DNA of 64,000 bases from Cellulomonas timonensis (lineage in GTDB: Bacteria; Actinomycetota; Actinomycetes; Actinomycetales; Cellulomonadaceae). The stretch is taken from positions 1 through 64,000 of the forward strand of contig NZ_FCOT01000010.1 of assembly GCF_900046455.1 (NCBI RefSeq), read 5' to 3'. Each line of letters opens with the position of its first letter. Position 1 is the stretch's first letter. Below are positions 13,901 through 37,135 of the stretch, piece after piece. The notes below the pieces were generated by a model. The model did not search any database, was not told the origin of the DNA, and saw only the letters and a program-made list of their open reading frames with translations. The position numbers were made by a program, and so were the translations under genes.

Positions 13901-15199
13901 CCCACGGGTCGTCGAGCACAGCGTCCAGCGCGCACCGCAACGCCGCCTCCACCCCGTCGGCCCCACCGGGGACGTCAGACCGCACGTTCAGCTCGAGCCG
14001 CAGCTCGGCGCCGATCTCGGCGAGGAGGGCCAGCGGGTAGTGCACGGCGTCACGCGCCCAGGTTCCGGCCACGGCCACCGAGCCGTCGGCGCTGCGCCAG
14101 CCGCCCACGTCGCCCGGGTAGTTCTCCACCACGAGCAGCGTGTCGAAGAGCGTGCCGAGCCCGACACGCGCCTGGACGGCCCCGAGGTCCGCGGCGTGCG
14201 CGTCGGCGACGACGCCGTGCAGCCGGTGGGCGGCGCGCACCACGTCGCCGAGGCGGTGACCCGGGCGGGCGTGGACCCGGAACGGGAGGGTGTTGCCGAG
14301 CAGCCCGACGATGCGGTCGCTGCCCGGCACGTCGGCGCCGCGCCCCGAGACGGCGAGCCCGAACACGACGTCCGCGTCGTCGACGATCCGGCCGAGCACG
14401 AGCCCCCACACCGCCGAGAGCACAGCCGCGGGGGTGGCGCCGAGCTCGCGCGCCCGGCTCCGCAGATCGCCGGCGCGCGGGACCAGGACGGTCCGTCGTG
14501 CCGCCGCTCCCCCGGCCGGGGACGCCGCCGTGGCCACAAGGGTCGGGGCGCCGAGCCCGTCGAGCGTGCTGGCCACGGCCTCCGTCGCCCGCTGGCCGTG
14601 CGACGGGTCGTCCTGCGGCAGCACGGCGTCGAGGTGGTCGACGAATCCCGCCTCACGCGGCTCGGGCCGGCCCCCGGTGGCCCGGACGAGGATCTCCTCG
14701 AGCAGCAATGGCACGGACCACCCGTCGAGCACGAGATGGTGCGCCGTCAGCAGGAGCACCGCGCGCCCCGTCCCGACGCGCGCCCACCGGGCCCGCAGCA
14801 GCGGCGGGCGCCGGGGGTCGAAGCCCCGCTCCCACTCCGCGTCCGCGACAGCCGCCACCGCCGGATGCGTGAGCGCCTCGCCCGGCCCGGCGCCGGCGGC
14901 CGTGACAGCGTCGACCACCTCCCACTCGGGCTCCAGCCCGTCCGCGACGAACTGCACGGGCGCGGAGTCGCCCTCGGCGAAGAACCCGGCACGGAGGTTC
15001 TCGTGGGCGTCCAGCACCTCGGCCAGCGCCGACCGCACAGCCCCGGCCTCCATGTCGCCCTCGAGCTCGACGGCGAACTGCAGCAGGTACGTCGGCCGCT
15101 CGCCCGCGTCCCGCTCCCAGAGCGAGTGGAACAGCAGGCCCCTCTGCAGCGGGGTGAGCGGCCAGACGTCGGTGACGGAGGGCATCGGCGCGGTGGTGC

Positions 15200-15203
<4 letters not shown>
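7977..15203 (-). CDS. Siderophore NRPS, modules 4-5 and release: C-A(Ser)-PCP-C-A(hydroxy-Orn)-PCP-TE
   Basis: Two-module peptide synthetase of 2408 residues. Order: C (HHLVLDGWS near 155), A ([11 protein letters not shown] near 615), PCP (GLDSISAI near 1003), C (HHILTDGWS near 1218), A ([11 protein letters not shown] near 1695), PCP (GGHSLLAM near 2095) and thioesterase (GYSFGG near 2226). Threading on GrsA gives pocket code DVWHVSLIDK for the first A domain, an EntF-like serine code. The second gives DMENLGLINK, the code known for ornithine/N5-hydroxyornithine in coelichelin synthetase. The thioesterase marks this as the terminal protein. Its ATG overlaps the stop of the upstream NRPS gene (ATGA), supporting the order. 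A 15-bp tandem repeat encodes QDVAP repeats in the linker before the last carrier domain. Confidence 0.95.
9181..9219. repeat. 15-bp tandem repeat inside the NRPS gene
   Basis: The unit TGCGGGGCCACGTCC occurs twice in tandem and begins a third time, giving [15 protein letters not shown] in the minus-strand protein. It sits in the flexible stretch of the last adenylation subdomain ahead of the carrier domain. Being 15 bp it keeps the frame, so copy number could vary between strains with little effect. Confidence 0.8.
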
Positions 15204-20227
<5,024 letters not shown>

Positions 20228-23200
20228 GACCCGGACCCGTCCTGCGGGGTCCGCGGCGGCTCCGGGCCCACGAGGACGCCGGCGCCGGGTGGGGCGGGCA
20301 GCGCGAGAGGTGTGGCGTCGAGCCCGTCCGCAAGCCGCGAGAGCACAGCGCCGAGCCCTTCCGCGAGCTGCTCCGCGCGCTCGGCCGGAACCCGCGCCTC
20401 GTCAAAGTCGAGCTCGACCCGCAGCCCCTCGCCCGGGAGTGCCGTGACGCCGACGGCGTAGTGCGTCGACCCGGCCGCGGCCATGCCCGCGACCTGGAGC
20501 CCGCCGGGCGCCGAGGTCCCCGGGGGGTAGTTCTCGACGACGACGAGGGTGTCGAAGAGCGTCCCGACGCCGGCCGTCGCCTCGATGTCCGCGAGTGGCA
20601 GGCACTCGTGGTCCTGCAGGTCCGCGCGCTCGCGCTGCAGCGCGCGGAGCTGTTCGCCGAACGGGCGCCCCGGCCGCATCCGGAACCGGGCCGGGACTGT
20701 CGTGGACAGCAGCCCCACGACCCCGTCGACGCCCTCGACGGCCGCGCTGCGCCCGGCAGTCGTCACCCCGACCACCACGTCGGCGCTGCCGAGCGCCCCC
20801 GCCACGATGTGCGCCCACGCGCCTGTCAGGACGGTGCTGACGGTGAGGCCGGCCGCGCGGGCCGTTCCGAGGAGCCGGTTCGCGGCGTCAGGGGCGAGCG
20901 GCACGGCGACGGTGCGCGTGCGCACCGTCGCACCGGACGCTGGCGCGAGGATCGACGCACGGGACAACCCGCAGAGGTGCGCACCCCACGCCTCGCGCGA
21001 CGCGTCGACGCCCTGCTCGACCTGGGCGAGGACGGCCCGGCGCCACGCGGGCCAGCCGTCGGCGACCCGGCCGCCCGCCGCGGCCTCGATGACCCGGTCG
21101 ACGAGGATCGGCGTGGACCAGCCGTCGAGCAGGAGGTGGTGGGCGGCGAGCACGAGCGTCGCCGACGCGGCCCCCGCCCGCACGATGTGCGCGCGCAGCA
21201 GCGGCGGGCGCCCGACGTCTGTGCGCCGGGCGGGCTCCGCCGCCACGAGCGCCTGGACGTCGGCGCCGTGCTCATGCACGGTGACCTCGGCGGACGCCCG
21301 GCGCGGCACAAGCTGGACGGGCCGATCGGCGACGTCGACGACGAAGGCCGCGCCGAGCTGCGGATGCGCGCTGACCACGGCGCCCACCGCCGCCGCGAGC
21401 GCGCGCACCTCGATTGGCGCCTCGCGGCCGTCGCCGTGCGGCGTGGACACCAGGTCGACGGTGGTCGTCGTCGTGTACACGTCGTCCTCGCCGTCGCGCA
21501 ACGCGTGGAAGAGCAGCCCCTCCTGCAGGGGCGTGAGCGGGGCGATGTCGCGCAAGGGCCCATGCTCGCGCTCGATCGCGCGGATCTGCGCGGCGTCGAG
21601 CCCGGGCAGCGCGGCCTCGGCCGGGATGAGGGTGGCCGGGGCGTCGGCGTCCGCGCGGCCCGCGAGCATCACCAAGCCGGCGAGGGCACGGTCCCAGGCC
21701 GCCAGGAGGGCGTCGGCCTCCGCGGCGAGCCCCGGGGCGATCGTCCACTCGACCTCGAGGCCGGCGTCCCCGGGCAGCACGAAGACGGCGACCTCGAGCG
21801 CGTGCCCGATGCCCAGGCCCTCCGGCAGGTGCACCTCGAAGGGCCGCTCGCCGCGTAGCGCCACCGAGGCGCCCGCGCGCGTGTCGCCGCCGAAGCGGCC
21901 GAGGTAGTTGAGCAACACGCCGGGGCGGGCCGGCTCGGCGGCCAGGCCGGCGCTGTAGCCGTCGCCGGGCGCCTCCGCCCGGGCCTGCCGGGCCGCGCGG
22001 ACGGCCTCCGCGAGGGCGTCCGGGTCCTCAGCCAGCGGCGCCTGGGCCGCCGCGGGGAACTCGATCGAGACCGGGAACTCGGTGGTGAACCACCCGATGC
22101 CCTCGGACGGGTCCTCGCCGTCGTGCAGCGGGTCGCGGCCGTGCGTCTCCCAGTCGACGAGCAGCCGGCCCTCGGCCGCCACACCCCGCCACTCGCGGAG
22201 CGCGGCGGCGAGCGCTCCCGCGAGGACGGCGTCGGGGCGGGCGTCGAGCAGGCTCGGCAGCCGGGTGAGCACGGCCTCGGCGACGTCCGCGGGAGCGGCG
22301 CGCACGATCCGCAGCGCCGACTGCGCCGCGAAGGCAGGCTCCGAGACGGGGAGGACCGAGCATGGCCGCTCCGCGAGCGCGCGCCAATGCGCCTCATGCG
22401 CGGGCGCGGCCTGCTGCGCCTCGAGGGCGAGGGCGCGTTCGCGCCAGGCCGCGTCCTCGCCTGGGGGGAGGTCCCCGCGGCCGAGCAGGACGCCGAGCTC
22501 GCGGATGATCGTGCGCCACGAGACGCCATCCACCACGAGGTGGTGGGCGGCCACGACGACGGCGTCGTCGCGGGCGATGAGCCCGACGGCGAGGACCCGG
22601 CCCGACGACGGGTCGAGCACACCGACCAGGCGGCGGCGCGGCGCCTCCGCTCCGGCCATGCCGTCGGCGGTGGACTCGTCTGCCAGGACCTCGATCGGCT
22701 GGCGCGCGTCGGGCGCGGGAATCTCCAGCGTCCACCCCTGCGCCGCATCGGCCGCGCCGTCGCTGGCGACGAGGTGCAGCACGGGATGCCGCCGGGCGAG
22801 GGCGTCGACGGCCGATCGCAGCGCCGCCAGATCGACTCCCGGCGCGCTGAGCACGATGCTCTGCGCGTACCCGCGCACCGCGTCGAGCCCGGGGGCGAGC
22901 CGCTCCAGCGCGCGGACCACGGGAGTGAGGGGCGCCGAGCCCCACGCGGCGTGCCGGGCGCGGGCCTGCGCTGTCCCGGCGAGCGGGCGGAGCAGGCCCG
23001 CCAGCCCGCGTGCGGTGCGCGCCGCGAAGAGGTCGCGCGGGCGTGCGACCCAGCCGGCCTTGCGCAGCGCCGACACGATGGCGATCGCGGAGATGCTGTC
23101 GCCGCCGAGGGACACGACGTCGACGTCCACGGGCACGTCCGCGAGGCCCAGCACCTCCCCGATGGCCGCGCACACCAGGCGCTCGGCGGCCGTCTCGGGC

Positions 23201-26186
23201 GCCGCGCCGCCCGTGGCGACGTGGCCGGGCTCCGGGAGCGCGGCGGCGTCGAGCTTGCCGTGGGCGGTGAGCGGGAGCCGGTCCACGACGCCGACGGCAT
23301 GCGGGACCAGGTGGTCGGGCGCCACCTCGCGCAGCCGCCCGAGCAGGTTGGCGGGGTCGAGTTCCGCGCCAGCGGCGGGGACCACGTACGCGAGCAGCCG
23401 CGTCGAGCCACCCGTGCCGCGGACGAGGGCGACCGCCTGCCCCACGCCGTCGAGCGACGCCACCGCGTCGCTCACCTCGCCGAGCTCGACGCGGTGCCCG
23501 CGGATCTTCACCTGGTCGTCATCACGCCCGAGTGAGGACAGGGCGCCGTCCGGCTCGACGCGGACGATGTCGCCCGTCCGGTAGAGGCGCCGCCCGCCGC
23601 CGCGGGGGTCGGCGATGAAGCGCGCGGCGGTGAGTCCGGATCGGCCCTGGTAGCCGCGGGCGAGGTGCGGCCCGCCGAGGCACAGCTCCCCCGCGACGCC
23701 GACGGGCACGGGCTGAAGGGCCCCGTCGAGCACGATCGCGTCGCTGCCCGCGAGCGCGCGGCCGATCCGGGGACGCTCGCCCACCACCGGCGCGCCGAGG
23801 GCGTCGACTGTCGCCTCGGTGGGGCCGTAGAAGTTGTGGCAGGCCATGCGCGACGCCGACAGCCGGCGCCACAGGTCCTGCGGGGCGGCCTCGCCGCCGA
23901 TGAGGAACAACTCCGGGGTGTGCGCCGTCTCGAGCAGCCCGGCGTCGACGAGTGCCGAGGCGAAGGACGGTGTCACGTCCAGGGTGTCGATCCTGGCGTC
24001 GTCGATCGCCTCGACGATCGCGCGGGCGTCGCGCCGGTCCTCCTCGTCGAAGACGACGAGCTCATGGCCGAGCAGCAGCCACAGGAGCTGCTCCCATGAC
24101 GAGTCAAAGGAGAAGGACGCCGTGTGAGCCGCCCGCAGCCGCCGACCTGCCCGCGCGGCGGTGGGGCCGAACAGCGTCGCCGCGTGGTGCGCGAGGAAGT
24201 AGGCGAGGGAGCCGCGGCTGACGCCGACGCCCTTCGGGCGGCCCGTCGACCCGGACGTGTAGACGACGTAGGCGAGCGTCGCCGGGTCGTGGACGGGGCC
24301 GGGGCCATCGGCAGGGTCGGCGTCGCCGGTGACGACGGAGGCCTCGCCGCCGGGGGCGCTGCCGTCCTCGTCGAGGACGAGCGCCCGTGGGTGCGACGCG
24401 GCCGCCGACCCGGCAGTTGTCACCACGACCACCGGCGCGGAGTCCCCCAGCAGGAAGGCGATGCGCTCGGCCGGGTAGCCCAGGTCCACAGGGGTGAGCG
24501 CGGCGCCCGCCTCCAGCACGGCGAGGAGCGCGACCACCAGGTCGACGCCCCGCGGCAGCGCCACGGCCACGACCCGCTCCGGCCCGGCGCCGTGGGCGAC
24601 GAGCTGTGCCGCGAGGGCGCGGACCCGTCCGTGCAGGGCGCCGAACGTGATCGCGTCGACCCCCGAGCGCACAGCGATCGCCCCCGGATCGGCCGCCGCC
24701 GCCCGTGCGAGCGCCTGGGACACGTCCAGGACGTGGAGGCCGCCCTCGGGCGCGGGCTCGGAGCCGTCCGCGCCGCGCTCGCCCCGGGGCAGGGCGGGCA
24801 CGCGCCCCACCGGGCGGTCGGGATCGGCCAGGAGCCGCTCGAGGAAGCCCCCGTAGCGCGCGGCGACCCGCTCCAGCTCGGCCGGGGTGTAGGCGTCCGG
24901 GTTCGCGTCGAGGCGCAGCGCGATGCCACACTCCCCTGCGACGACAGACAGGTCGAGGTCGTCCACCGGCCCCGCCGCCTCGGTGCGCAGCTCGCCGCGG
25001 GCCTCGCCGAAGTCGAGCGTGGGCGTGTACGGCTTGAGGTTGACCCCCGGCCCGCGCAGCAGCGAGGGGATCCCCTGCTGGGCGACGATCTCCTCGCCGC
25101 GCAGCGCCTGGGAGCGGCGCAGCACCGCGAGGCCCTCGGCCACGCGACGCGCGAGCCCGGCCAGCGACTCCGCGGGGTCGACGCGCACGGGCAGCGGCAA
25201 CACGGTGACCGACATCGACGGGGTGCGCGCCGCCTCCCGCGTCGTGCGAGCAGCGAACGGGACGCCGAGCACGAGGGCGGCGGAGCCGGAGGCCCTGGCC
25301 GCGAACGCCGCGAAGGCAGCCGTGTGCACGTCGGCCCACGTGATCCGCCGGTCCCTCGCGGTCAGGCGCAGGACGGCTTCGCCGACCTCCTCGGGCAGCA
25401 CGAGGGGGACTCCGATCGCGCGGCGCACCGCGGGGGCCCGCCGCCCGGACACGGTCGGGACGGCGCCGTCGGCGGCAAGCGCCGAGGTCAGGGCGGAGTC
25501 GAGCAGGTCGGTGATCGCGGAGCCGTCGCAGGCCGCGCGCCCCGCCGCCTCCGCCTCGACCAGCCGCTCGAGCGAGCCGAAGCCCTGACCCGGGCCATCG
25601 GCGCCCACCAACGCCCGATAACGCTCCGCGACCCGCTGCGCGATGAGCGAGATCGCATAGCCGTCGACGGCGACGTGGTGGTAGCGCTGTAGCCACAGCA
25701 CCCGCTCCGGCCCCGTGCGGATGATCACCTGCCCCACGGGCTCCGCGGCGTCCAGGCCTCCCGCGCCGCGGGCCAGCTCGGCGTCGACAAGAGCCTGCGC
25801 GGCCCCCGACGGATCGGCCTCGCCCGAGACGTCGTGCGTCCGCACCGTGGCCTCGGCACGGACGGCCACCCGGAACGGCTCCCCGGTCTCCGGGTCGCGC
25901 TCGACGCGGAACCCGAGGGCCTCGGCCTCCCGGACGACCTCCGTGACGGCCTGCGCGAGGAGCGCCGTCGACACGCGGCCGGTGAGCTCGACGCAGTCCG
26001 CGACGACGAAGACGTCGGAGTCCGGGTCGAGGGCCTGCGCGTCGACGATGCTGCGCTGGGCGGCGCTGAGCGGCAGGCGGGAGACGGCCGTGGCGACTGC
26101 CAGGTCCTCGGGTTCGGTGCGTGTGGGTGACACGGGTGATGGGCCCTTCACGGAGTCGGTGGATCGGTGCGGGCGGGACGGCGACG

Positions 26187-27236
26187 TCAGTCGTCCTCGT
26201 CGAGGTGCTCGTGCGTGTCCGCTGCCCCGCGCTTCCAGTAGCCGGTGATCGACGAGTGGTCCTTCGTCAGTCCGAGGTCGTGGCGCACCCAGCGCCGCAG
26301 CGGCTTGATGGCCCCGGACTCCCCCGCGAGCCACGCGAAGACGCTCGCGCCCTCGGGGAGGGGGACGGCCCGCGTCGCGTCCTCGAGCAGCGTCGTCGCG
26401 GCGCCGCCGTTGTGCAGCCACGTGACGGACACGCCCGGCGGGGCGTCGAGCGGCTGCTCGGACGCGGGTCCGGGCACCTCGATCAGCACCGCTCCCCTGC
26501 GGTCTCGCGGGCTCTCCTCGAGCCAGCGGGCCACAGCGGGCAGCGCCGTCTCGTCGGCGGCGAGCACGTAGAAGTCGTAGTCGTCGCTGACCCGGTAGCC
26601 GCCCGGGGGGCCCGCCACGTGCACCGTGCCCCCCGGCTGGACGTCCCTCGCCCAGTCGGAGGCGAGGCCGTGCGCGTGCACGACGAAGTCGATGTCGATC
26701 TCTCGCGCCTCGGGCCGGTGGGCGCGCACCGTGTACTCGCGGCCCGTGGGGATGGGACGCGGCCACACGAGGTCGTCGCCGTCCGGTTGGGGCAGTCGCA
26801 GCTCGCCCGTGTCGGGGTCGGGGAAGAGGAGCTTGACGTGCTCGTCGAAGACGCCGCTCTCGAAGCCCTCGGCCCCCGGCCCACCGAGTGTCAGCCGGAT
26901 CATGGTGTCCGTCAGGCGGGTGCGCCGCACCACCTCGACCTCGCGGATGCGGACCGGGAAGTCGACGTATGCGACGGGCTCCGGCGTGCGGCCCCCTCCC
27001 GTGACCCCCTCCCCTGCGGCCGGCACGCCGTCCATCGCCTCGCGCAGCGACCGAGGGCGCAGGTCGGTCCAGGTCCGCTCGACGTAGTCGAGGGAGTCCG
27101 CGCGCGTCGACTCGCCTTGGGCGACCGACCAGCCGGAGGGGACCTCCGCGAAGCTCGGCCACAGCGAGAACTGCTCCTCGTCGTTGACCAGCACGAGGAA
27201 GGCCCCGTCCTCGTCGTCGAAGGGGTTGGTGCTCAT
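26187..27236 (-). CDS. MbtH-like protein fused to a siderophore-interacting (SIP) FAD reductase
   Basis: A continuous 349-residue frame joining two normally separate functions. Residues 1-70 are a complete MbtH-like domain with [18 protein letters not shown] and the [12 protein letters not shown] signature; MbtH proteins bind and activate NRPS adenylation domains. After a Gly/Pro-rich linker (about 71-90), residues 90-345 are a SIP-family reductase: FAD motif REYTVR, a GPPGGY phosphate-binding loop, the [11 protein letters not shown] segment and the C-terminal [11 protein letters not shown]. SIPs reduce ferric siderophores to release iron in the cytoplasm. ATG 27236 overlaps the stop of the aryl carrier gene (ATGA), and the NRPS follows 53 nt downstream. 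No other MbtH gene is in the window, so this domain probably serves the NRPSs here. Confidence 0.93.
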
Positions 27237-27508
27237 CGGTGTCCTTCCGTCTGTGGTGTGGGCTGTGGTGTCGGCGCCGCCCCGTCGAGGGCGGACGCGA
27301 TGAGGGCGAGGGTGGGACCGCCGACGAGGTCGGCGTACCCGATCTGCCCGCCCTGTTCGGCGACGCGGGCGATGAGGTCCATCACCCGCACGGAGTCGAG
27401 CCCGTAGTCGCGCAGGTCCTCCGCGGGACCGGCGTCGGCGACGTCCTCGGGCACGATCTGGGCCACCAGCCCGCGGGCGCGGGCGAGGGCGATGTCAGAC
27501 GACGGCAT
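27233..27508 (-). CDS. Free-standing aryl carrier protein
   Basis: Carrier protein of 91 residues with the phosphopantetheine site at Ser39 in DYGLDSVRV and a four-helix carrier pattern around it; the last 18 residues are Pro/Thr/Gln-rich. It should carry 2,3-dihydroxybenzoate, loaded by the adjacent DHB-AMP ligase and handed to the starter condensation domain of the NRPS. In EntB and DhbB this domain is fused to isochorismatase; here the isochorismatase of the locus lacks it and it is encoded alone. It overlaps the hydroxylase gene by 14 nt upstream and the MbtH-SIP gene by ATGA downstream. Aryl loading is inferred from context. Confidence 0.88.
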
Positions 27509-28808
27509 GGCGTCCTTCCTCCAGGCGTGAGTGGCGCCCGGCGCGGACCGCGCCGGCGAGCAGGTCGGCGATCTCGCCAGCGCGGACGGCGACTGTGGAC
27601 AGCAGCGGGGAGGTCATCCCGTGCAGGTGGTCGCTCTGGCCGACGAGGACGAGGCTCGCCGAGCCGGGGGCCGTCAGCTCCGCCCGGTGGTCGCGTCGGA
27701 TGACGGGCCTGCCGGAGGCGTCCCGCCGCACAAGGTCGACGTCGTCGCCGAGTAGCACGGACATGTCGAGCGCGTCGTACCCCGTGCCGAGCACCACCGC
27801 CTCGGCGTCGAGCACGGACTCCCGGCCGTCCAGGTCGGAGCGCACCACGACCCGGACGCCATGCGGCCCCTCGGCCAGGGAGGCCACCCGGCTGGCCCGG
27901 TGCAGGACGAGCCGCTCGCGGCCGAGCCACCGGTCCCGGTAGGCCCGGTCGAAGAACTCCTGGATGACCTCGGCGCTCGCGACGCCGTTGTTCGCGTTGC
28001 GGTGCAGCCGGTCCAGGCGCGCCCGCACGTCCTCCTCCGCGGCGTACAGCAGGTCGACCGTCTCGGGGTCGAAGATGCCGTTCACGAGCGGCCCCTGGTA
28101 GGACGGCCCGACGCCGAACTGCGAGGACACGAGGTGCACGGCGGCGTCCGGGAACCTGTCGGAGAGGTCCAGCGCGACCTCCATGGCGCTCTGGCCGGTG
28201 CCGACGACGACGAGCCGCGTCGGCGCGCGCAGCTCCCCGACGCGATGCAGGTGGTCGGAGCTGTGCCAGCAGCGGGGCCCCGGCTCGACGCCGACGGGCA
28301 GGCGCGGCTGGAGCCCGGCGGCGACCACCACCGCCCCTGCCCGCACGGAGCCGATGCCGTCGGATGACGCCACGACGACGTCGAACGCGTCGACCCGGCC
28401 GTCGGCCCCCCACACCGGCGCGATCCGCTCGACGCGTGAGCCGTAGCGCACCACGTCGTCGAAGGAGGCGGCGGCCCAGCGCAGGTAGGCGGCGAACTCG
28501 ATCCGCAGCGGCTCCATCGAGCCCCTGTTGGTGAAGTCCGCGAGCCTGCCCTGCTGGTGCAGGAAGGAGACGAACGAGTAGCGCGAGGTCGGGTTCCGGA
28601 ACGTGACCAGGTCCTTGAGGAAGGAGATCTGCATGCTCGCGTCCGTGAGCAGCATGCCCGGATGCCACGTGGGCTCAGGCTGGGCCTCGAAGAAGACCGC
28701 GCCGGGCGCCCCCGGCTGTTCCCGCAAGGCGATCGCTAGGGCGAGGTTGGCCGGGCCGAAGCCGACGCCGACGACGTCGATCCGGGCAGCCAGCGGACGC
28801 CCGGTCAT
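27495..28808 (-). CDS. L-ornithine N5-monooxygenase
   Basis: Flavin-dependent N-hydroxylase of 437 residues, family of PvdA, CchB and IucD. It uses FAD, NADPH and O2 to convert free L-ornithine to N5-hydroxyornithine in the cytoplasm. The FAD-binding motif GVGFGPANLALA is at residues 14-25, the NADPH motif VVGTGQSAMEVALDL is near 205-219, and the ATGY-type motif appears as VLGTGYDALD near 346. The product matches the terminal A-domain code (DMENLGLINK), so ornithine rather than lysine is the likely substrate. No formyl- or acetyltransferase is present, so the hydroxyornithine probably stays unacylated and cyclises or is acylated by the peptide chain. Start overlaps the ligase stop (ATGA). Confidence 0.92.
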   Translation of the reverse strand: MTGRPLAARIDVVGVGFGPANLALAIALREQPGAPGAVFFEAQPEPTWHPGMLLTDASMQISFLKDLVTFRNPTSRYSFVSFLHQQGRLADFTNRGSMEPLRIEFAAYLRWAAASFDDVVRYGSRVERIAPVWGADGRVDAFDVVVASSDGIGSVRAGAVVVAAGLQPRLPVGVEPGPRCWHSSDHLHRVGELRAPTRLVVVGTGQSAMEVALDLSDRFPDAAVHLVSSQFGVGPSYQGPLVNGIFDPETVDLLYAAEEDVRARLDRLHRNANNGVASAEVIQEFFDRAYRDRWLGRERLVLHRASRVASLAEGPHGVRVVVRSDLDGRESVLDAEAVVLGTGYDALDMSVLLGDDVDLVRRDASGRPVIRRDHRAELTAPGSASLVLVGQSDHLHGMTSPLLSTVAVRAGEIADLLAGAVRAGRHSRLEEGRHAVV

Positions 28809-30526
28809 GCCCGCCCCCGCGACCCGGAGGGCGACGAGGTGAGGCGCCGCCTGTCGACCTTGCCGACGCCCGTCGCCGGGAGCGCCTCCACGAACGCGAA
28901 CACGTCGGGCGTCTTGTAGGTGGCCAGCCCTTGCGCCGCGAGGAAGCGTCGCAGCTCGACCGCGCGCGGCGGGGCCGCCCCGTCGCGGAGCACCACGTGC
29001 GCGCGGACCCGCTCGCCGAGCACCTCGTCGGGGAGCCCCGACACCGACACGTCATGCACATCGGAGTGCGCGAGCAGCGCGTTCTCGACCTCCTCCGGCG
29101 CGATCTTCTCGCCGCCGCGGTTGATCTGGTCCTTCGAGCGGCCCACCACCGTGAGGTAGCCGTCCTCACGCTCGACGACGAGGTCGCCGGTGCGGTAGAA
29201 GCCCTCGGGGGTGAACGCCCTGACGTTGTGCTCAGGCGCCCGGAAGTACCCGCGAATCGTGTACGGCCCCCGGGTCAGCAGGGCGCCGGCGGTGCCCCGA
29301 GACACCGGGCGGTCCCGCTCGTCCACGACGAGGACCTCGTCGTCCGGGCTGATCCGCAGCCCCTGAGTCGACAGGACCGTCTCCCGGTCGTCGTCGAGCC
29401 GCGTGTAGTTGACCAGCCCCTCCGCCATGCCGAACACCTGCTGGAGACGGCAGCCGAAGGCGGGCTCGATCCGCGCGGCCACGCTCCGGCTGAGCTTGGC
29501 GCCGCCGACCTGGACGACCTCGAGGCTGGTGAGGTCGGCCGTGGCGGCCTGGGCCGAGTTCAGCCAGGCGATGACCAAGGGCGGCACGGTGGGCACGATC
29601 GTCACGCGGCGCCGCTCGACCAGCCCGAGGGCGCCCGCCGGGCTCGGGTCCTCCGTCAGGACGATCGTGCCGCGCGCGTGGATCACGCCGAGGACGCCCG
29701 GCGAGGACATCGTGAAGTTGTGCGCGATGGGCATCGCCACGAGCAGGCGGCTGTGCTGGTCGAGGCCGCAGATCCGGGCGCTCTCGCGCACCGAGTACAG
29801 GTAGTCGTCATGCGTGCGCGCGATGAGCTTCGGAGTGCCGGTGGTGCCGCCGGAGAGCTGCAGGAGCGCGACGTCGGCCGGGCAGACGGGGACGGTCGGC
29901 GCGGCCGGGAGCGGCCGGATGACCTCGACGAGCCCGACGCCACGGCGCTCGGCGGCGGAGGCTGCGTCGTCGTCATCCGCATCGTCGACCAGCAGGACGC
30001 CGCGCACGCTCGCCACACACGCCTGGACCTCGCGGGCGAGGGCGCCGTGGTCGAAGCCCGCGATCACGCCGCGGGTGACGATCAGCACCGCGTCCGCGGT
30101 CTGGGCGATGTGCCGCAGGTCGCTGCGCCGGTGCGCGGGGAGCGTGAGGACGGGGACGGCCCCGAGCCGGGCCAGCGCGAAGACGACCAGCACGAACTCG
30201 GTGATGTTGGGCAGTTGCACGACGACCCGCTCGCCCCGGGTCACGCCGTGGCATCGCGCGAGCAGCGTCGCGGCACGCCCTGCCAGCTCGTCGAGCTCGC
30301 GGTAGGCGAGCTCGCGCTCGCCGTCGATGACCGCGACCTGCCGAGGCGCCTGCGCGGCCGCCTCGCGGAGCAGGCCGTTGAGGGTGGCCCCCGTCCAGTG
30401 CCCTGCGGCGCGGTAGCGGGCCGCCACGTCAGCGGGATAAGGCACGGCCCCGTCGATCAGCAGCGGGGCGGGAGGGGCGACCAGGCCGGTGGGGCTCAGG
30501 CGCGCTGCCCCGGCGTCGCCGCTCAT
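28805..30526 (-). CDS. entE: 2,3-dihydroxybenzoate-AMP ligase
   Basis: Activates 2,3-dihydroxybenzoate with ATP and loads it on the aryl carrier protein (EntE/DhbE family). The protein has 573 residues. Visible are the aryl-ligase P-loop SGGTTGTPKLI near 225, the pocket segment IAHNFTMSSPG, VFGMAEGLVNYTR, YRTGD and a C-terminal GVGKVDRR with the catalytic lysine. AHNF with the small Ser/Gly residues that follow is typical of DHB/salicylate ligases; the DHB synthesis genes alongside favour DHB. Start ATG 30526 overlaps the isochorismate synthase stop (ATGA); the frame is open upstream only as a shadow of that gene. The ornithine hydroxylase overlaps its 3' end. Confidence 0.93.
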   Translation of the reverse strand: MSGDAGAARLSPTGLVAPPAPLLIDGAVPYPADVAARYRAAGHWTGATLNGLLREAAAQAPRQVAVIDGERELAYRELDELAGRAATLLARCHGVTRGERVVVQLPNITEFVLVVFALARLGAVPVLTLPAHRRSDLRHIAQTADAVLIVTRGVIAGFDHGALAREVQACVASVRGVLLVDDADDDDAASAAERRGVGLVEVIRPLPAAPTVPVCPADVALLQLSGGTTGTPKLIARTHDDYLYSVRESARICGLDQHSRLLVAMPIAHNFTMSSPGVLGVIHARGTIVLTEDPSPAGALGLVERRRVTIVPTVPPLVIAWLNSAQAATADLTSLEVVQVGGAKLSRSVAARIEPAFGCRLQQVFGMAEGLVNYTRLDDDRETVLSTQGLRISPDDEVLVVDERDRPVSRGTAGALLTRGPYTIRGYFRAPEHNVRAFTPEGFYRTGDLVVEREDGYLTVVGRSKDQINRGGEKIAPEEVENALLAHSDVHDVSVSGLPDEVLGERVRAHVVLRDGAAPPRAVELRRFLAAQGLATYKTPDVFAFVEALPATGVGKVDRRRLTSSPSGSRGRA

Positions 30527-31656
30527 GCGCCCACCAGCCAGGCCGGGCTCAGCTCGGTGACGTCCGCAAGCGCGTCGAGGGCGGTGCGGAGCTTGGCTGC
30601 CGTCTCGGCGTGCTCGGCCCCCGGGTCGGATCCGGCGAGGATGCCCGCGCCCGCCTGCACCCGCGCGCTCGCGCCGGTGACGGTCGCGCAGCGCAGCGCG
30701 AGGGCCCATTCGCCGTCACCCGAGGAGTCCATCCAGCCCACGAGCCCGCCATAGGCGCCGCGCCCCTCGGGTTCGAGGGCGTCCACCAGGGCGGCGGCCT
30801 CCTGGGCCGGGACGCCGCACACGGCGGCGGTGGGATGCACCGCGTAGGCCACGTCGAGCGCCGTGACGCCGGGGCGCAGCCGCCCGGAGACCCGGGTCCC
30901 GAGGTGCCACAGGCGGTCCGCCTCCACGATCGCCGGCGCGGCGGGGATGTGGAGGTCGGTGACGAGCGGCGCGACGTCGCTAGCGAGGCCGGCGACGAGG
31001 ATCGCGTGCTCCTCGCGGTCCTTGGAGGACGCCAGCAGGGCCGTGTGCGCCACGTGGTCCTCGTCCGGGTCGGCCCGCCGCGCCGCGGTCCCGGCGAGGG
31101 GGTGCGAGCGCACGGCCAGGCCCTCGACATCGGCCACCAGCTCCGGCGACGCTCCGACGATCACCGAGCCGTCGGCGAGCGGGATGTGGAAGCCGTACGC
31201 CGCGGGATTGCGCGCCGTGAAGGCGGCGAGGAGCGCCTCGGTGTCGATCGGCGCGGGGGCCCGCACGTCGAAGGCCCGCGCGAGCACGACCTTGCGGATC
31301 ACGCCGGCGCCGATCGCGTCGAGCGCCTGCTCGACGGCTGACCGGTACGCGGGGTCGTCCGCGAGGGCGGGCGCGGTCCCCCGCGCCTGGCGCCCGGTGG
31401 CCCGGCCCGCCCGCGGCTCCTCGATGACGCGCTCGGGCACGACGAGCCGCGCGGGTGATCGGGGGTCGAACGGGATGGACCCCATCACCAGGCGCGGGAC
31501 GCCGTCGGCCTGTTCGAGCTCGCGCAGCAGGGCGAGCGCGGCGACGGCCGCGCCGGGCCCGCAGGCCAGGTCCTGGGAGAGGACGGCCCGGCGGCCGGAG
31601 CCGCGCAGGCGCCGCCGGCCGAGGAAGACGAGGTCGTCGCGCGTGGGTGTCGTCAT
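30523..31656 (-). CDS. entC: Isochorismate synthase
   Basis: Converts chorismate to isochorismate, the first committed step to 2,3-DHB. The 377-residue chorismate-binding protein has the family's GVIRKVVLAR motif near 120, the conserved RSHPLAGTAAR region near 189-199, HPTAAVCGVP near 277 and the C-terminal GAGILAGSDPGAEHAET magnesium-site segment. The start ATG is supported by AAGGA seven nt upstream. A 69-nt gap with a hairpin and direct repeats separates it from entA, the largest gap among the DHB genes, so some local control of expression is possible. It overlaps entE by ATGA. Confidence 0.94.
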   Translation of the reverse strand: MTTPTRDDLVFLGRRRLRGSGRRAVLSQDLACGPGAAVAALALLRELEQADGVPRLVMGSIPFDPRSPARLVVPERVIEEPRAGRATGRQARGTAPALADDPAYRSAVEQALDAIGAGVIRKVVLARAFDVRAPAPIDTEALLAAFTARNPAAYGFHIPLADGSVIVGASPELVADVEGLAVRSHPLAGTAARRADPDEDHVAHTALLASSKDREEHAILVAGLASDVAPLVTDLHIPAAPAIVEADRLWHLGTRVSGRLRPGVTALDVAYAVHPTAAVCGVPAQEAAALVDALEPEGRGAYGGLVGWMDSSGDGEWALALRCATVTGASARVQAGAGILAGSDPGAEHAETAAKLRTALDALADVTELSPAWLVGA

Positions 31657-31725: not shown

Positions 31726-32445
31726 TCAGCGGAGGGAGGCCCCGCCGTCGACGTAGAGCTCCTGCATCGTGATGTGGCGTGCCGCGTCCGAGGCGAGGAA
31801 GGCCACGGCCTCGGCGATGTCCTCGGGCTCGGCGACCCGGAGCAGGGGGATGCCCGGTTTGAAGAGGGCGGAGTCCCCCGCGATCGCCCGCTCCGCGGCC
31901 TCGTCCACGCTGTCGCCCAGCCGGGTGAGCATCGCGGTGCGGGTGGTCCCGGGCGCGACCACGTTGCAGCGGATGCCGTGGCTGGCCAGCTCGAGCCCGA
32001 AGGACTTCATGTACGCGGTGGCGGCGGACTTCGAGGCGGCGTACGCGGCCATCCCGGCCCGGGGCACCCCCGCGGCGTTGGAGGAGACAGTGACGATGGC
32101 GCCGCTCCCCCGGGGGGCCATGCGGGCGGCCACGGCGCGGGAGACACGCGCGGCGCCGACGGTGTTGACCGCGAGCAGCGCCTCGAGGTCGGACAGGTCG
32201 GTGTCCAGCACGCTTCCGGCGCGCAGCACCCCGGCGGCGTTGACCAGGACGCCGATCGGGCCGTCTGACCCCTCGACGGCCGCCACCAGCGCGTCGACCG
32301 ACGCGGCGTCGGTGACGTCCACGCGGCGCCGCGCCCCTGCGAGGTCAGCTCCGACCGCCGTCCAGCCCGCGCGTCCGAGCCGCTCGAGCACCGCCGCGCC
32401 GATGCCGCCGGCAGCGCCGACCACCAGGGCGACCCCGCCGCTCAT
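31726..32445 (-). CDS. entA: 2,3-dihydro-2,3-dihydroxybenzoate dehydrogenase
   Basis: Short-chain dehydrogenase of 239 residues that oxidises 2,3-dihydro-2,3-dihydroxybenzoate to 2,3-DHB with NAD+. The Rossmann glycine motif VGAAGGIG is at residues 9-16, NAAGVL follows near 70, and the catalytic Ser-Tyr-Lys set is seen as VSSNAAG, then YAASKSA. The C-terminal VDGGASLR is typical of EntA/DhbA proteins. ATG 32445 overlaps the stop of the isochorismatase gene (ATGA). Position between entB and entC supports DHB synthesis over a generic reductase. Confidence 0.93.
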   Translation of the reverse strand: MSGGVALVVGAAGGIGAAVLERLGRAGWTAVGADLAGARRRVDVTDAASVDALVAAVEGSDGPIGVLVNAAGVLRAGSVLDTDLSDLEALLAVNTVGAARVSRAVAARMAPRGSGAIVTVSSNAAGVPRAGMAAYAASKSAATAYMKSFGLELASHGIRCNVVAPGTTRTAMLTRLGDSVDEAAERAIAGDSALFKPGIPLLRVAEPEDIAEAVAFLASDAARHITMQELYVDGGASLR

Positions 32446-33098
32446 CGGACGGCCTCCCGCGTCAGCTGCGCGAGCTCGGCGATGACGTCGTCGGCGGCCA
32501 GCACCCGCGCGCACCGGGTGGCCGCGTAGCGCAGCGCCGCCACGTGGTCCTCGCGGGAGAAGTCGGCCACGGCGTCGGCGACGAGGAACGGCTGGACGTC
32601 GTTCATGAACGCGTCCGCGGCCGTCAGCAGGCACCCGATGTGCGCGTACACCCCCGTGACCACAAGCTGGTCCCGGCCGCCCTCGACGAGCAGCTCACGC
32701 AGCGGCGTGCGGATGAACGCGTTGTAGCGCCACTTGGTGAGGATGACGTCGCCGGGCTGCGGGCTCAGCCCGGCGACGATGCGGGCGCCCGCCTCGTCCT
32801 GCAGCCCGGCGCCCCAGAAGTCGGTCAGCAGGCCCCGGTCGGACGCCGCCTGCCCGGGGGGCTGCGCCGTGTACACGACCGGCACGCCCTGCTCACGCGC
32901 ATGGCGCAGCACGCGCGCGATGGTGGCCACCACCTCCCCGATCGTCTGGTCGGGCTCCTCGTACGCGTCGACGAAGTGGCGCTGCATGTCATGCACGAGG
33001 ACGACTGCCCGGCGCGGGTCGAGGGGCCAGGCCACTCGTCCCCCCGCGTAGTCGTCGGGGCCGGGCAGCGGATACGAGGCGATCCGGGGAAGGCCCAT
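32442..33098 (-). CDS. entB: Isochorismatase (no carrier domain)
   Basis: Hydrolyses isochorismate to 2,3-dihydro-2,3-dihydroxybenzoate and pyruvate. At 218 residues it equals the N-terminal isochorismatase half of EntB/DhbB; the C-terminal aryl carrier domain is absent and its role is taken by the separate carrier gene at 27233-27508. The catalytic triad is visible: Asp37 in LVHDMQ, Lys in [10 protein letters not shown], and Cys in GVYAHIGC. The start lies one nucleotide after the fepB stop, so translation is probably coupled to the binding-protein gene upstream. Confidence 0.94.
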
Positions 33099-33099
33099 G

Positions 33100-34104
33100 T
33101 CAGCCCCCGGCGACCGCGTCGGCGAGCACCGGCACGAGCCGTTCCAGGACCCAGCCCTCGCTGAGCGGCGTCGGGTAGGCCAGCGGCGAGGCGACGAGGT
33201 CGTCGATGACGGCGTAGTGGCCGCCCGCCACTGCGGGGACCTGCTGGAACAGCACGTCGCCCTCGAGCGCGGACTGGCTCAGCAGGCCCTCGTCGCCGAA
33301 CGGGTACCCCACGAGGAGCACGTCGGCGTCGAGCAGGTCGAGGTTCTCGCGGCTGACAGCGGCGCTCGACGCGCTGAACTGCGACGCCGTCTCGGGGAGC
33401 GTGAGGCCGAGCCTGGTGAAGAAGGTGACGTCGCTGCCCTCGTAGGAGATGTACGTGACCTGCTCGGGGTGGATCACGGCGTAGGTGAACGACGTGCCGG
33501 CGAACTCGGGGTGCTCGGCCGCCGCCGCGTCGAACTGCTGCGCGACGCCGTCGATGACGGACTGCGCCTCCTCGGGCACTCCCAGTGCCGTGCCCGCCTC
33601 CTCGGTGCGGTCGGCCCACGTCATCGAGCCGAGCCCATCCTCGCCCTGGTAGGACACCACTGGGGCGATCTTCGACAGGTGGGCGTAGTCCTCGTCGAGC
33701 GTCCAGCCGCTCGTGGCGAGGATGACGTCGGGCTCGGCCGCCGCGATGGCCTCGTAGTCGACCCCGTCGGTGGAGTCGTAGGTGGCGAGCTCTGCCCCGC
33801 CGAGCGAGTCGAGCGCGTCGGCGGCCCAGGGCTCGAGCTCGGCGTGGCCGTACCGCGGGCCGATGACGGGGACCACGCCGAGCGCCAGCGCGATGTCGAG
33901 GTCGACGGACGAGACCACGGCGACCCGCTCGGGCTGCTCCTCGAGCACCGTCTCGCCGAAGGGGCTCGTGAGCGTCAGCGGGTAGCCGCCCGCGGAGCCG
34001 GCCGCTTCCGCGGCCTCCTGCTCGGCGGGTGCGCAGCCGGCGACGGCTGCCGCTGCCAGGGACACGACCGCTGCGGCGACGAGCGCGCGACGGGCACGGG
34101 ACAT
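33100..34104 (-). CDS. fepB: Ferric siderophore-binding lipoprotein
   Basis: Extracellular lipid-anchored receptor that captures the ferric siderophore for the FepDGC transporter. The 334-residue protein has an N-terminal signal with basic MSRARR, a hydrophobic core and a lipobox ending AVAGC with Cys24. The TroA/FepB periplasmic-binding fold follows, with ERVAVVSSVDLDIALALG near 56-73 and EPDVILATSGW near 120. ATG 34104 is chosen over an upstream in-frame ATG because GAGGAG lies seven nt before it and the signal peptide starts there. It sits between the ATPase gene (54-nt gap) and entB (1-nt gap). Confidence 0.93.
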   Translation of the reverse strand: MSRARRALVAAAVVSLAAAAVAGCAPAEQEAAEAAGSAGGYPLTLTSPFGETVLEEQPERVAVVSSVDLDIALALGVVPVIGPRYGHAELEPWAADALDSLGGAELATYDSTDGVDYEAIAAAEPDVILATSGWTLDEDYAHLSKIAPVVSYQGEDGLGSMTWADRTEEAGTALGVPEEAQSVIDGVAQQFDAAAAEHPEFAGTSFTYAVIHPEQVTYISYEGSDVTFFTRLGLTLPETASQFSASSAAVSRENLDLLDADVLLVGYPFGDEGLLSQSALEGDVLFQQVPAVAGGHYAVIDDLVASPLAYPTPLSEGWVLERLVPVLADAVAGG

Positions 34105-34158
34105 GGGTGACTCCTCAGGTGGAAGGGATGGCGATAGGGGTGATGCGGCTCGCCGCAC

Positions 34159-34953
34159 TCACACGTCGTGCCGCCCGCGGGCCAGCACGAGCGGGGCGGC
34201 GGTGTCCGGGTCGTGGATCACCCGCGCGCGGACGCCGAACACGTCGGCGACGAGCTCGGCGGTGACGACGTCGGCGGGCGGCCCGGCGGCCACGATCTGG
34301 CCGTCCTTCATCGCCACGATCGTGTGGGCGTAGCGCACGGCCTGGTTGAGGTCGTGCATCACGACGACGATGGTCGTGCCGGCGGCGTTCAGGTCGACCA
34401 GCAGGTCCAGCACCTCGACCTGGTGGGCGATGTCGAGGTAGCTGGTCGGCTCGTCCAGGAGCAGCAGCGGCGTCTCCTGCGCGAGGGCCATGGCGATCCA
34501 CACCCGCTGCCGTTGTCCGCCGGACAGGGTGTCGACGGCGCGCGCGGCGAGGTCGGCGGCGCCGCTGCGCAGCAGGGCGCCCGCCACGACCCGGTCGTCG
34601 TCCGCGGTGCGCGCGCCGAAGCGCCGGTGCGGGTGGCGCCCGCGACGGACGAGCTCGGCGACGGTGATGCCCTCCGGCGCGACGGGGGCCTGCGGCAGCA
34701 TCCCGAGCCGGCGGGCCACCTCCCGCGTCGGCAGCGCGTGGATGTCGGCGCCGTCGAGCAGCACAGATCCGCCCCTGGCGGGGAGCAGCCGCGCGAGCGT
34801 GCCGAGCAGCGTGGACTTGCCGCAGCCGTTGGGGCCGATCAGCGCGGTGATCTTGCCGTCGGGGACTGCGAGGTCGAGGCCCTCGAGGACGACATGGTCG
34901 CCGTGGCCGGCGGTGAGCCGCTGGGCGAAGACCGCCCGGAGGAGCGCGGTCAT
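34159..34953 (-). CDS. fepC: Ferric siderophore ABC transporter ATPase
   Basis: Cytoplasmic ATPase of the siderophore importer, 264 residues. The motifs are standard: Walker A GPNGCGKST near 40-48, Q-loop MLPQAP, signature LSGGQRQR near 143, Walker B LLLLDEPTSYLD and the switch histidine in VVVMHDLNQA. The FepC/FhuC-type TSYLDIAHQ segment fits iron-chelate importers. The ATG overlaps the permease stop (ATGA). A 54-nt gap follows before fepB, without a visible iron box of its own. Confidence 0.94.
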   Translation of the reverse strand: MTALLRAVFAQRLTAGHGDHVVLEGLDLAVPDGKITALIGPNGCGKSTLLGTLARLLPARGGSVLLDGADIHALPTREVARRLGMLPQAPVAPEGITVAELVRRGRHPHRRFGARTADDDRVVAGALLRSGAADLAARAVDTLSGGQRQRVWIAMALAQETPLLLLDEPTSYLDIAHQVEVLDLLVDLNAAGTTIVVVMHDLNQAVRYAHTIVAMKDGQIVAAGPPADVVTAELVADVFGVRARVIHDPDTAAPLVLARGRHDV

Positions 34954-36023
34954 GCGTCGGCCTTCCGGTGGAGGAGCAGGAGCACGAGCACGGGGGCGCC
35001 GATCAGGCCGGTGAGCACCCCCGTGGGGACGGGGCTCACGTACGGCGCCGTCTGGGCTGCGACATCCGCGAGCAGGAGCACCGCTGCCCCGACGAGCGCT
35101 GCCGGGAGCGGGCCGGATCGCGCCAGCAGGCGGGCGGCGATGGGGCCGGCGACGAGCGCGATGAACGCGACGGGGCCGGCGACGCTCGTCGCGATGGCCG
35201 CGAGCGGCGCCCCGAGCAGGAGCACGCCGACGCGCGCCGCCTGCACGCGTGTGCCGAGGGCCGCGGAGAGCAGGTCGCCGAGCCGGAGAGTCTCGAGGTC
35301 GGGGCCGATCAGCAGGACGGCTGCCATCGCGGCGCCCAGCACCACGGCCAGCACCACGACCTCATCCCACCGCGCGCCCGCGAGCGAGCCGATCATCCAG
35401 CGCATCGCGCGCGTGGACGTGGTGGAGTCGGCGAACGTGAGGAGGTAGCTGGTGATCGCGGAGCAGCAGGCGCCCACCCCGATGCCGACCAGCACGAGCC
35501 GGTACGTCGAGGCCCCGCCCCGCCTGCTCAGGCCGAAGATCAGGGCCGCGGCGGCCACCGCGCCGAGCACGGCCCCGGCCTGCACGGCGAGGCCGCCCAC
35601 CCCTGCGCCGACCAGCACGGCGACGGCCCCGGCGCTCGCGCCGGCGGAGACGCCGATGATGTCCGGCGTCGCCAGGACGTTGGAGAAGAGCCGCTGGCAC
35701 ACGACGCCGGAGAGGCCGAAGAGCGCGCCGACGAGCAGTGCGGTGAGCGCGCGCGGGAGGCGGGTCTCGAAGATCACGAAGTCGGCGAGCCCGGAGCCTT
35801 GGCCGACGAGCGCGCCCGGGATCTCGGCGAGCCCGATGTCGGCCGTCCCGCCGACGAGGATCTCGGCGCAGAACCCGATGAGGACGACGGCTCCCACCCC
35901 CGCCAGCGTCACGGCGGGGCGCCGCCGCACGCTGCGCCGCTCGGCCCGCAGCCCTGCGACCAGGTGGGCGACAGCGTCCTCGGCGTCGCGGCCGGCCGTG
36001 CTGGCCTCGGTCGCCGCCGTCAT
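34950..36023 (-). CDS. fepG: Ferric siderophore ABC permease (FecCD family)
   Basis: Second membrane subunit of the ferric siderophore importer, 357 residues with about nine or ten hydrophobic segments after a charged 50-residue N-terminus. FecCD family landmarks are visible: RLPRALTALLVGALFGLSG near 110, the ATPDIIGVSAGA motif near 140 and, in the C-terminal third, VAGPVAFIALVAGPIAARL, the loop that contacts the ATPase. ATG 36023 overlaps the stop of the first permease (ATGA). Order fepD-fepG-fepC matches catecholate transporters. Confidence 0.93.
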   Translation of the reverse strand: MTAATEASTAGRDAEDAVAHLVAGLRAERRSVRRRPAVTLAGVGAVVLIGFCAEILVGGTADIGLAEIPGALVGQGSGLADFVIFETRLPRALTALLVGALFGLSGVVCQRLFSNVLATPDIIGVSAGASAGAVAVLVGAGVGGLAVQAGAVLGAVAAAALIFGLSRRGGASTYRLVLVGIGVGACCSAITSYLLTFADSTTSTRAMRWMIGSLAGARWDEVVVLAVVLGAAMAAVLLIGPDLETLRLGDLLSAALGTRVQAARVGVLLLGAPLAAIATSVAGPVAFIALVAGPIAARLLARSGPLPAALVGAAVLLLADVAAQTAPYVSPVPTGVLTGLIGAPVLVLLLLHRKADA

Positions 36024-37135
36024 GCCTCCACCAGCCTGCGCGTGCGGGCGAGCACGACGAAGAAGGGCGTGCCGACGACGGCCGTCATGATGCCGACGGC
36101 GATCTCGCCGTGGCCGGGGGCGAGCCGCCCGGGCGCGTCGGCGGCGAGCAGCACCGTCGCGCCCGCCACCATGCTGAACGGCAGCAGCAGCCGTTGGTCC
36201 CCGCCGACGACGAGCCGCGCGAGGTGCGCCCCGACGAGCCCGATGAAGCCGATGGGCCCGGCGGCGGCGACTGCGGCGGCGCAGAGCAGGACCGCGACGA
36301 GCGCCGTGGCGAGCTGGGCGCGGCGCACGCGCACGCCGAGGCCTGCCGCGACGGCCTCCCCCAGCATGAGCGCGTTGAGCGTCGGGCCGCACAGCAGCGC
36401 GAGCACGAGGCCCGCCACCGCGAAGGGCCACAGCTCGCCGATGGCGTCGCCGCGCCCCGCGAGCTGGCCGATCGACCAGAAGCGGTATCGGGAGAACGCC
36501 GACTCGTCGCGGATGATCAGGAGGTTGATGACCGCGCCCAGCATCGCCGCGGTGGCGGCCCCGGCAATCACGAGGCTCACGGCCGTCGAGGCGGCGCGCG
36601 TGAGGCGCGAGACCCCGTAGACCACGACGGCTGTCGCCACGGCGCCGGCGAGCGCGAGCCAGAAGGTCGCCACGACGCCGTTCAGGCCGAAGGCGACGAT
36701 GCCCGCGACGACGGCGCAGGCGGCGCCGAGCTCGACGCCGAGGATGCCGCCGTCGACGAGCGGATTGCGCGTGATGGCCTGCATGATCGCCCCGGACCCG
36801 CCGAGGCAGAGCCCGACGAGGAGGCCGACGACGGTGCGGGGCACCCGCTCGGTGGCGATGACTGTCGCGTCGTAGCTCTCAGGCGATGCGCCGGCCAGCG
36901 CGTCCGCCACCGCGCGCGCCACGGTGCTGGGCGGGATCACGCGGGCGCCGAGGGCGAGTGAGAGCAGGGCGACGAGCCCGAGGAGGAGGACCAGGGCGAC
37001 GAGGCCCGCCACCCGGCGCCGTGTGGTCGTCGTGACGGCGCCGAGAACGGCTCGGGGATCGTCCATGCCGAGCGCGATGGGCTCCGTCGAGCCGCCGTGG
37101 GGCAGGACATTCGTGGACGTTCCACCCCCGCGCAC
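36020..37135 (-). CDS. fepD: Ferric siderophore ABC permease (FecCD family), first gene of the operon
   Basis: First membrane subunit of the importer, 371 residues, multi-spanning. Visible landmarks are RVPRTVVGLLVGLCLGGSGAIMQ near 100, TRNPLVDGGILGVELGAA near 124 and the ATPase-contact loop AGPIGFIGLVGAHLARL near 290. Start is taken as GTG 37135, which has GGAG five nt upstream; an internal ATG at 37066 is possible but has no clear ribosome-binding site. The iron boxes lie 50-83 bp upstream of this GTG, so this gene opens the iron-regulated transcript. Confidence 0.92.
   Translation of the reverse strand: MRGGGTSTNVLPHGGSTEPIALGMDDPRAVLGAVTTTTRRRVAGLVALVLLLGLVALLSLALGARVIPPSTVARAVADALAGASPESYDATVIATERVPRTVVGLLVGLCLGGSGAIMQAITRNPLVDGGILGVELGAACAVVAGIVAFGLNGVVATFWLALAGAVATAVVVYGVSRLTRAASTAVSLVIAGAATAAMLGAVINLLIIRDESAFSRYRFWSIGQLAGRGDAIGELWPFAVAGLVLALLCGPTLNALMLGEAVAAGLGVRVRRAQLATALVAVLLCAAAVAAAGPIGFIGLVGAHLARLVVGGDQRLLLPFSMVAGATVLLAADAPGRLAPGHGEIAVGIMTAVVGTPFFVVLARTRRLVEA

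Follow-up and report, generated by a model that had tools for sequence, protein, structure and literature searches.

The stretch of DNA analysed here, referred to below as the window, comprises positions 1 to 64,000 of contig NZ_FCOT01000010.1 from Cellulomonas timonensis (assembly GCF_900046455.1). It contains a gene in which an MbtH-like domain is joined in frame to a siderophore-interacting reductase (SIP), with the following parts:

26187..27236, minus strand: MbtH-SIP fusion gene, an ATG-started frame of 349 aa without internal stops
27036..27236, minus strand: MbtH-like domain, residues 1-67, Pfam match at 3-53, with NxExQxSxWP and WTDLRP intact
26967..27035, minus strand: linker, residues 68-90, open and fast-evolving, in the place of the stop and start codons of the two separate genes in the relatives G1012 and Leaf334
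26190..26966, minus strand: siderophore-interacting reductase domain, residues 91-349, with FAD_binding_9 at 101-212 and SIP at 222-337

All three Pfam matches lie well above their cut-offs, with 87 bits against 27 for the MbtH domain (E 5.5e-25), 104.8 against 23 for FAD_binding_9 (E 4.5e-30) and 125.9 against 26.3 for SIP (E 1.5e-36), and the succession of PF08021 and PF04954 on the chain is that of siderophore-interacting reductases. The MbtH half matches the consensus NxExQxSxWPx5PxGWx12Lx7WTDxRP given for MbtH-like proteins (MLPs) in the accessible text of PMC6668435, except that the last spacing is 6 instead of 7, as it also is in stand-alone MbtH relatives. A pattern search recovered the expected motifs, among them PSGW, WTDLRP, REYTVR and DFVVHxx, although the SIP patterns were composed after inspection of the sequence and are a weak test. 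Among solved structures, the SIP half is best matched by 4yhb, of which residues 13-271 align with residues 93-349 of the fusion (E 5.6e-56), and several solved MLPs, among them 2khr and 6ea3 (E 2.4e-28 for 6ea3), match the MbtH half; a comparison with NCBIfam at E 0.001 returned nothing for the fusion. With its 349 aa the protein is not a small stand-alone MLP, and Pfam finds no AMP-binding domain in it, which sets it apart from fusions of an MLP with an adenylation (A) domain. A strand or code artefact was ruled out, since the minus-strand frame carries strong family matches; the plus-strand translation of the same stretch is a different protein. The MbtH-SIP fusion is therefore real, and the original prediction of a complete MbtH domain and a complete SIP in a single 349-residue frame agrees with Pfam and the motifs, down to the exact coordinates.

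The fusion gene is embedded in a set of minus-strand genes for siderophore synthesis and transport:

4577..8142, minus strand: two ABC transporter genes (4577-6334 and 6331-8142) with membrane and ATPase domains, putatively for siderophore export or import
7977..15203, minus strand: non-ribosomal peptide synthetase (NRPS) with 2 A, 2 C and 2 PCP domains and a thioesterase
15200..20227, minus strand: NRPS with 2 A, 1 C and 2 PCP domains
20224..26142, start approximate, minus strand: first NRPS, with 1 A domain, 1 PCP and 4 condensation-type stretches
27233..27508, minus strand: free-standing carrier protein (PP-binding), whose stop overlaps the ATG of the fusion (ATGA)
27495..28808, minus strand: lysine/ornithine N-monooxygenase family (hydroxamate), by family match
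28805..30709, minus strand: 2,3-dihydroxybenzoate-AMP ligase family, the best model scoring below its curated cut-off
30523..31656, minus strand: isochorismate synthase family, by family match
31726..32634, minus strand: short-chain dehydrogenase, probably in an EntA/DhbA role to judge from its position in the operon
32442..33098, minus strand: isochorismatase domain protein, presumably EntB-like, in which no carrier domain was found
33100..34158, minus strand: periplasmic-binding-protein family, a probable siderophore binding protein, by family match
34159..34953, minus strand: siderophore uptake-type ABC ATPase, by family match
34950..37135, minus strand: two FecCD permeases (ORFs 34950-36431 and 36020-37135), by family match

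Together, the three NRPS genes encode five A domains, and the last of these genes also carries the thioesterase; from this gene content the product of the operon should be a catecholate-hydroxamate siderophore. The start codon of the fusion is preceded by GGAAGGA. The 4.06 Mb genome gave a single MbtH match, the fusion, and its seven condensation-domain matches all fall inside this cluster; for any A domain here that requires an MLP, no candidate other than the fused domain was found. The first NRPS yields several partial condensation-domain matches, and its C/E domains are possibly unusual or degenerate. The open reading frame of the dihydroxybenzoate-AMP ligase, as called, has 634 aa and overlaps that of the isochorismate synthase; since its family match begins at residue 90, the true start probably lies about 200 nt or more downstream. 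Siderophore operons are expected to be under iron regulation. A search of the window with an IdeR/DtxR palindrome found no box at up to three mismatches, and the site of the iron regulator at this operon may have diverged from that palindrome.

G006, another genome from this genus, carries the same fused frame with 96% identity; there too no MbtH match other than the fusion was found, and its listed neighbours stand in the same order as in the window. Over the 1050 nt compared, the two genes differ by no indel, while 12 substitutions fall within the 69-nt linker. A sequencing or assembly artefact concealing a stop or start, an objection that the original prediction had itself raised, would be in line with the two separate genes of the nearest relatives outside the genus; however, an open and variable linker in both genomes argues against such an error, and equally against decay, and we regard the artefact as practically negligible. 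Nei-Gojobori estimates of dN/dS between the window and G006 are 0.017/0.148 for the MbtH domain, 0.154/0.331 for the linker and 0.014/0.216 for the SIP domain, so both domains are under purifying selection. For the whole fusion gene (344 codons aligned), dS is 0.212, as against 0.091-0.273 for the seven other cluster genes compared; with this ordinary dS, the similarity of the two fusions is unlike that left by a fresh transfer. Among the eight cluster genes compared, the fusion has the lowest dN (0.023), which could hint at a role beyond a neutral join; the highest belongs to the first NRPS, with 0.102 against 0.023-0.049 for the seven others. One half might nevertheless be a non-functional passenger and the fusion a decaying pair, as the genome holds four further SIP-like matches. 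This is very improbable in view of the intact motifs and low dN/dS of both halves and of the lack of any second MbtH match in the genome.

In the closest unfused relatives found, the same two domains occupy the same place between the carrier protein and the first NRPS, but as two genes in different frames and not as one chain. In Cellulomonas sp. Leaf334 (L032, L165), which like the window belongs to the Cellulomonadaceae, mbtH ends with TGA and sip starts 11 nt later, whereas in G1012 (L198), which belongs to another family of the same order, the two genes overlap by the 4 nt ATGA. The gene order carrier protein-MbtH-SIP-NRPS is common to both. Identity to the window is highest for G1012, with 79% for MbtH and 81% for SIP, compared with 72% and 66% for Leaf334. 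In a SIP tree of 26 hand-picked rows (95 of the 201 loci carried a SIP match), the fused pair clustered with a support of 99/99 and was joined by G1012 (92/93), Leaf334 (92/80) and Rhodococcoides fascians (99/99), the two inner forks lying below the 95/80 mark of the tool. A shuffled-label control gave 44 of 500 values as low, which is a weak control with two fused rows. As the fused pair nests beside unfused neighbours, the arrangement is best explained by one recent merger of two coupled genes that lay next to each other; from the tree and the alignments, separate genes are most likely ancestral, the fusion having arisen once, in or near the genus. The original prediction had counted two separate genes in relatives against itself. 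Outside the genus, the nearest relatives do show this arrangement, which makes the fusion derived and not false.

Other genes of these operons give a more mixed picture. For one permease, G1012 is 76% identical to the window and Leaf334 63%, whereas G1012 ranks below Leaf334 for the ATPase (71% vs 75%) and the binding protein (63% vs 67%); that a member of another family stands above the same-family Leaf334 for some genes is a hint of horizontal movement or of a mosaic operon. No EntA, EntB or EntC relatives were seen within 19.9 kb around the G1012 locus. In R. fascians A44A (L033), two SIP-type genes lie in tandem (8028-8798 and 8822-9565), with 63% and 32% identity to the SIP half of the window; the 17.5-kb L033 contains no MbtH match, and the same contig has one MbtH gene (L051) at a distance of more than 200 kb.

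The frequency of the arrangement was assessed in several samples. MbtH and SIP lie on the same strand within 400 nt of each other in 13 distinct genomes or records (from 201 loci), of which two are fused, namely the window and G006; in the other 11 they form two genes, seven in the order MbtH-SIP and four in the order SIP-MbtH. The two domains are thus usually separate, as had been supposed at the outset. Where both occur in the same frame (L039 and L201), stops intervene between MbtH and SIP. The opposite order occurs in three Streptomyces records and in G295 (L036, L039, L040, L152), where SIP comes first and MbtH follows after some 300 nt, either in another frame or beyond intervening stops. 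After removal of repeats and of hits without WTDxRP, 63 distinct MbtH tails were left; 61 of them stop within 26 residues past this motif, and the remaining two are the fusions of the window and G006.

Searches with the whole protein gave a match in 87 of 99 relatives, and among the matches listed residues 1-349 are covered by the genome of the window (G000) and G006 only. In the class sample (match in 116 of 394 genomes) and the phylum sample (20 of 396), none of the matches listed except that of the window starts before residue 38; these searches took E up to 1e-40 and scored five candidates per genome, so a weaker fusion would escape them. The lowest starts were found in G565 (38), G333 (53) and G637 (60), and the flanking stretches examined contain no MbtH. 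Among plasmid records, the best 15 of 680 matching all start at residue 53 or later. An MbtH search of the family gave a match in 12 of 221 genomes, fused in G000 and G006 and not joined to SIP in the other 10; in the five other genomes of the genus that were compared, MbtH gave no match. The order sample yielded 50 rows from 36 of 396 genomes. The 29 new MbtH loci among these were examined, and in each the frame ends no more than 73 residues after the start of the match, so that none is fused; a further 20 rows brought no new locus, and two of them, G024 and G047, were covered by the family search. The class sample gave an MbtH match in 147 of 394 genomes, counted at genome level, and the contig scan of relatives covered 80 of 236 relatives. 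Long open frames around MbtH (L172, L185, L191, L195, L113) revealed no second Pfam domain. In total, 1,506 genome searches in overlapping samples yielded no further fusion among the matches listed and the loci examined. An ancient or widespread fusion is unsupported, with no third case in the samples examined. mbtH and sip often lie next to each other, and their merging seems to be rare.

Several known systems resemble the fusion in part. The fuscachelin system of Thermobifida fusca provides the structural matches 6ea3 and 4yhb for the two halves of the window protein, the MLP FscK and the SIP FscN, 4yhb being FscN; in T. fusca these are separate proteins (separate PDB chains), whereas here they form one chain. 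The structure 6EA3 is listed with the MbtH-like FscK in the accessible text of PMC11253843. A similar separation is found in the siderophore cluster of Arthrobacter arilaitensis, for which PMC2991359 gives separate MbtH-like and siderophore-interacting genes. SlgN1 and NikP1, like the fusion, are larger proteins that begin with an MLP (PMC6668435), and the SlgN1 structure 4gr4 matches fusion residues 3-73. However, their partner is the A domain itself, whereas the partner in the window is a reductase, so that the MLP of the window must act in trans. In ObiF/ObiF1, too, an MLP is fused, in this case inside an NRPS (available parts of PMC6668435 and PMC5490192), and 6n8e matches fusion residues 3-46. 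In the same portion of PMC6668435, the authors report that ObiF1 lacks WTDxRP and suggest a relaxed constraint for fused MLPs; the window protein, in contrast, keeps WTDLRP, as one would expect if its MLP works in trans. Besides obafluorin, nikkomycin and streptolydigin are named in the accessible text of PMC5490192 for MLP domains embedded in an NRPS, which are described there as rare. IrtA (matches 9fxc, 9g2k and 7wiu; 859-901 aa) likewise has a SIP-type domain sharing a chain with another function of the siderophore cycle, but its partner is an importer, the step next to reduction, while that in the window is a biosynthesis chaperone. General background was drawn from the available parts of PMC5550956 and PMC11253843.

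An MbtH-SIP fusion was not described in the literature searched, as seen in the parts of the sources available and with subscription papers, preprints, UniProt and InterPro outside the scope. Within that scope, the initial remark that no described protein with this pairing was known is supported; an earlier database entry or report of the pairing is quite possible.

We consider it probable, at about 0.68, that the gene is a recent fusion of coupled mbtH and sip genes that yields two independently working domains in equal amounts, 1:1, without calling for any new activity. The ancestor would have had adjacent, translationally coupled mbtH and sip genes in an operon for a mixed catecholate/hydroxamate siderophore, an arrangement seen in relatives. 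In this genus a frame-changing indel presumably removed the mbtH stop together with the sip start, which would have left a flexible linker of about 20 residues between two independently folded domains; the two states can be aligned, and the mutational path is reconstructed from them. To judge from their families and intact motifs, the MbtH domain would work in trans with the A domains of the cluster as their sole MLP, and SIP would act as an NAD(P)H-flavin reductase that frees iron from the re-imported siderophore. The join itself may mainly set the 1:1 ratio.

The fused frame might also yield two or more proteins, the full-length chain and a free SIP arising through an internal start at Met68 or Val71 or through proteolysis of the linker. 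Both fused genomes have an in-frame ATG (Met68) and GTG (Val71) at the domain border, with GCGAGG just before Met68, and the linker is variable and rich in Gly, Pro and Ala; moreover, G1012 and Leaf334, the unfused relatives closest to the window, carry Leu where the fusion has Met68. Efficient initiation requires a suitable distance between ribosome site and start codon, however, and only 2 nt separate the purine run from the ATG, less than a good site would need, while 8 of 12 stand-alone MbtH rows from more distant relatives have Met at the same place. We hold split products to be unlikely. A plain inheritance of Met68, as the SLREAM tails would suggest, is made less certain by the Leu of G1012 and Leaf334.

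Alternatively, the MbtH domain could bind the A domains and thereby dock the reductase on the NRPS, so that iron would be released, or redox control exerted, where the siderophore is made. MLPs do bind A domains (accessible text of PMC6668435), the fusion has been maintained in two species with low dN, and a linker of about 20 residues could leave both domains working. On the other hand, related operons in the closest relatives run with separate proteins and the linker is the least conserved part, so that such tethering appears doubtful. We know of no need for a reductase at the NRPS assembly line. Only tentatively can MbtH be proposed as a docking module that couples the building of the siderophore to the release of iron, for instance through its removal from the siderophore or from iron-loaded intermediates at the assembly line.

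Returning to the favoured fusion of two independently working domains, the gene is, as far as its sequence relationships tell, a derived fusion of two known families that is present in two species. In the MLP fusions named in the available parts of PMC5490192 and PMC6668435, the partners are NRPS domains, and a chain of MLP and reductase differs from these. It provides an example of adjacent coupled genes merging while the unfused state persists in close relatives. If the domains are simply independent, this would be a neat but modest fusion of operon genes. As a natural MLP-reductase chain, it nevertheless offers a clean test case for whether MLPs may serve as docking tags and whether siderophore synthesis and iron release may be physically coupled.
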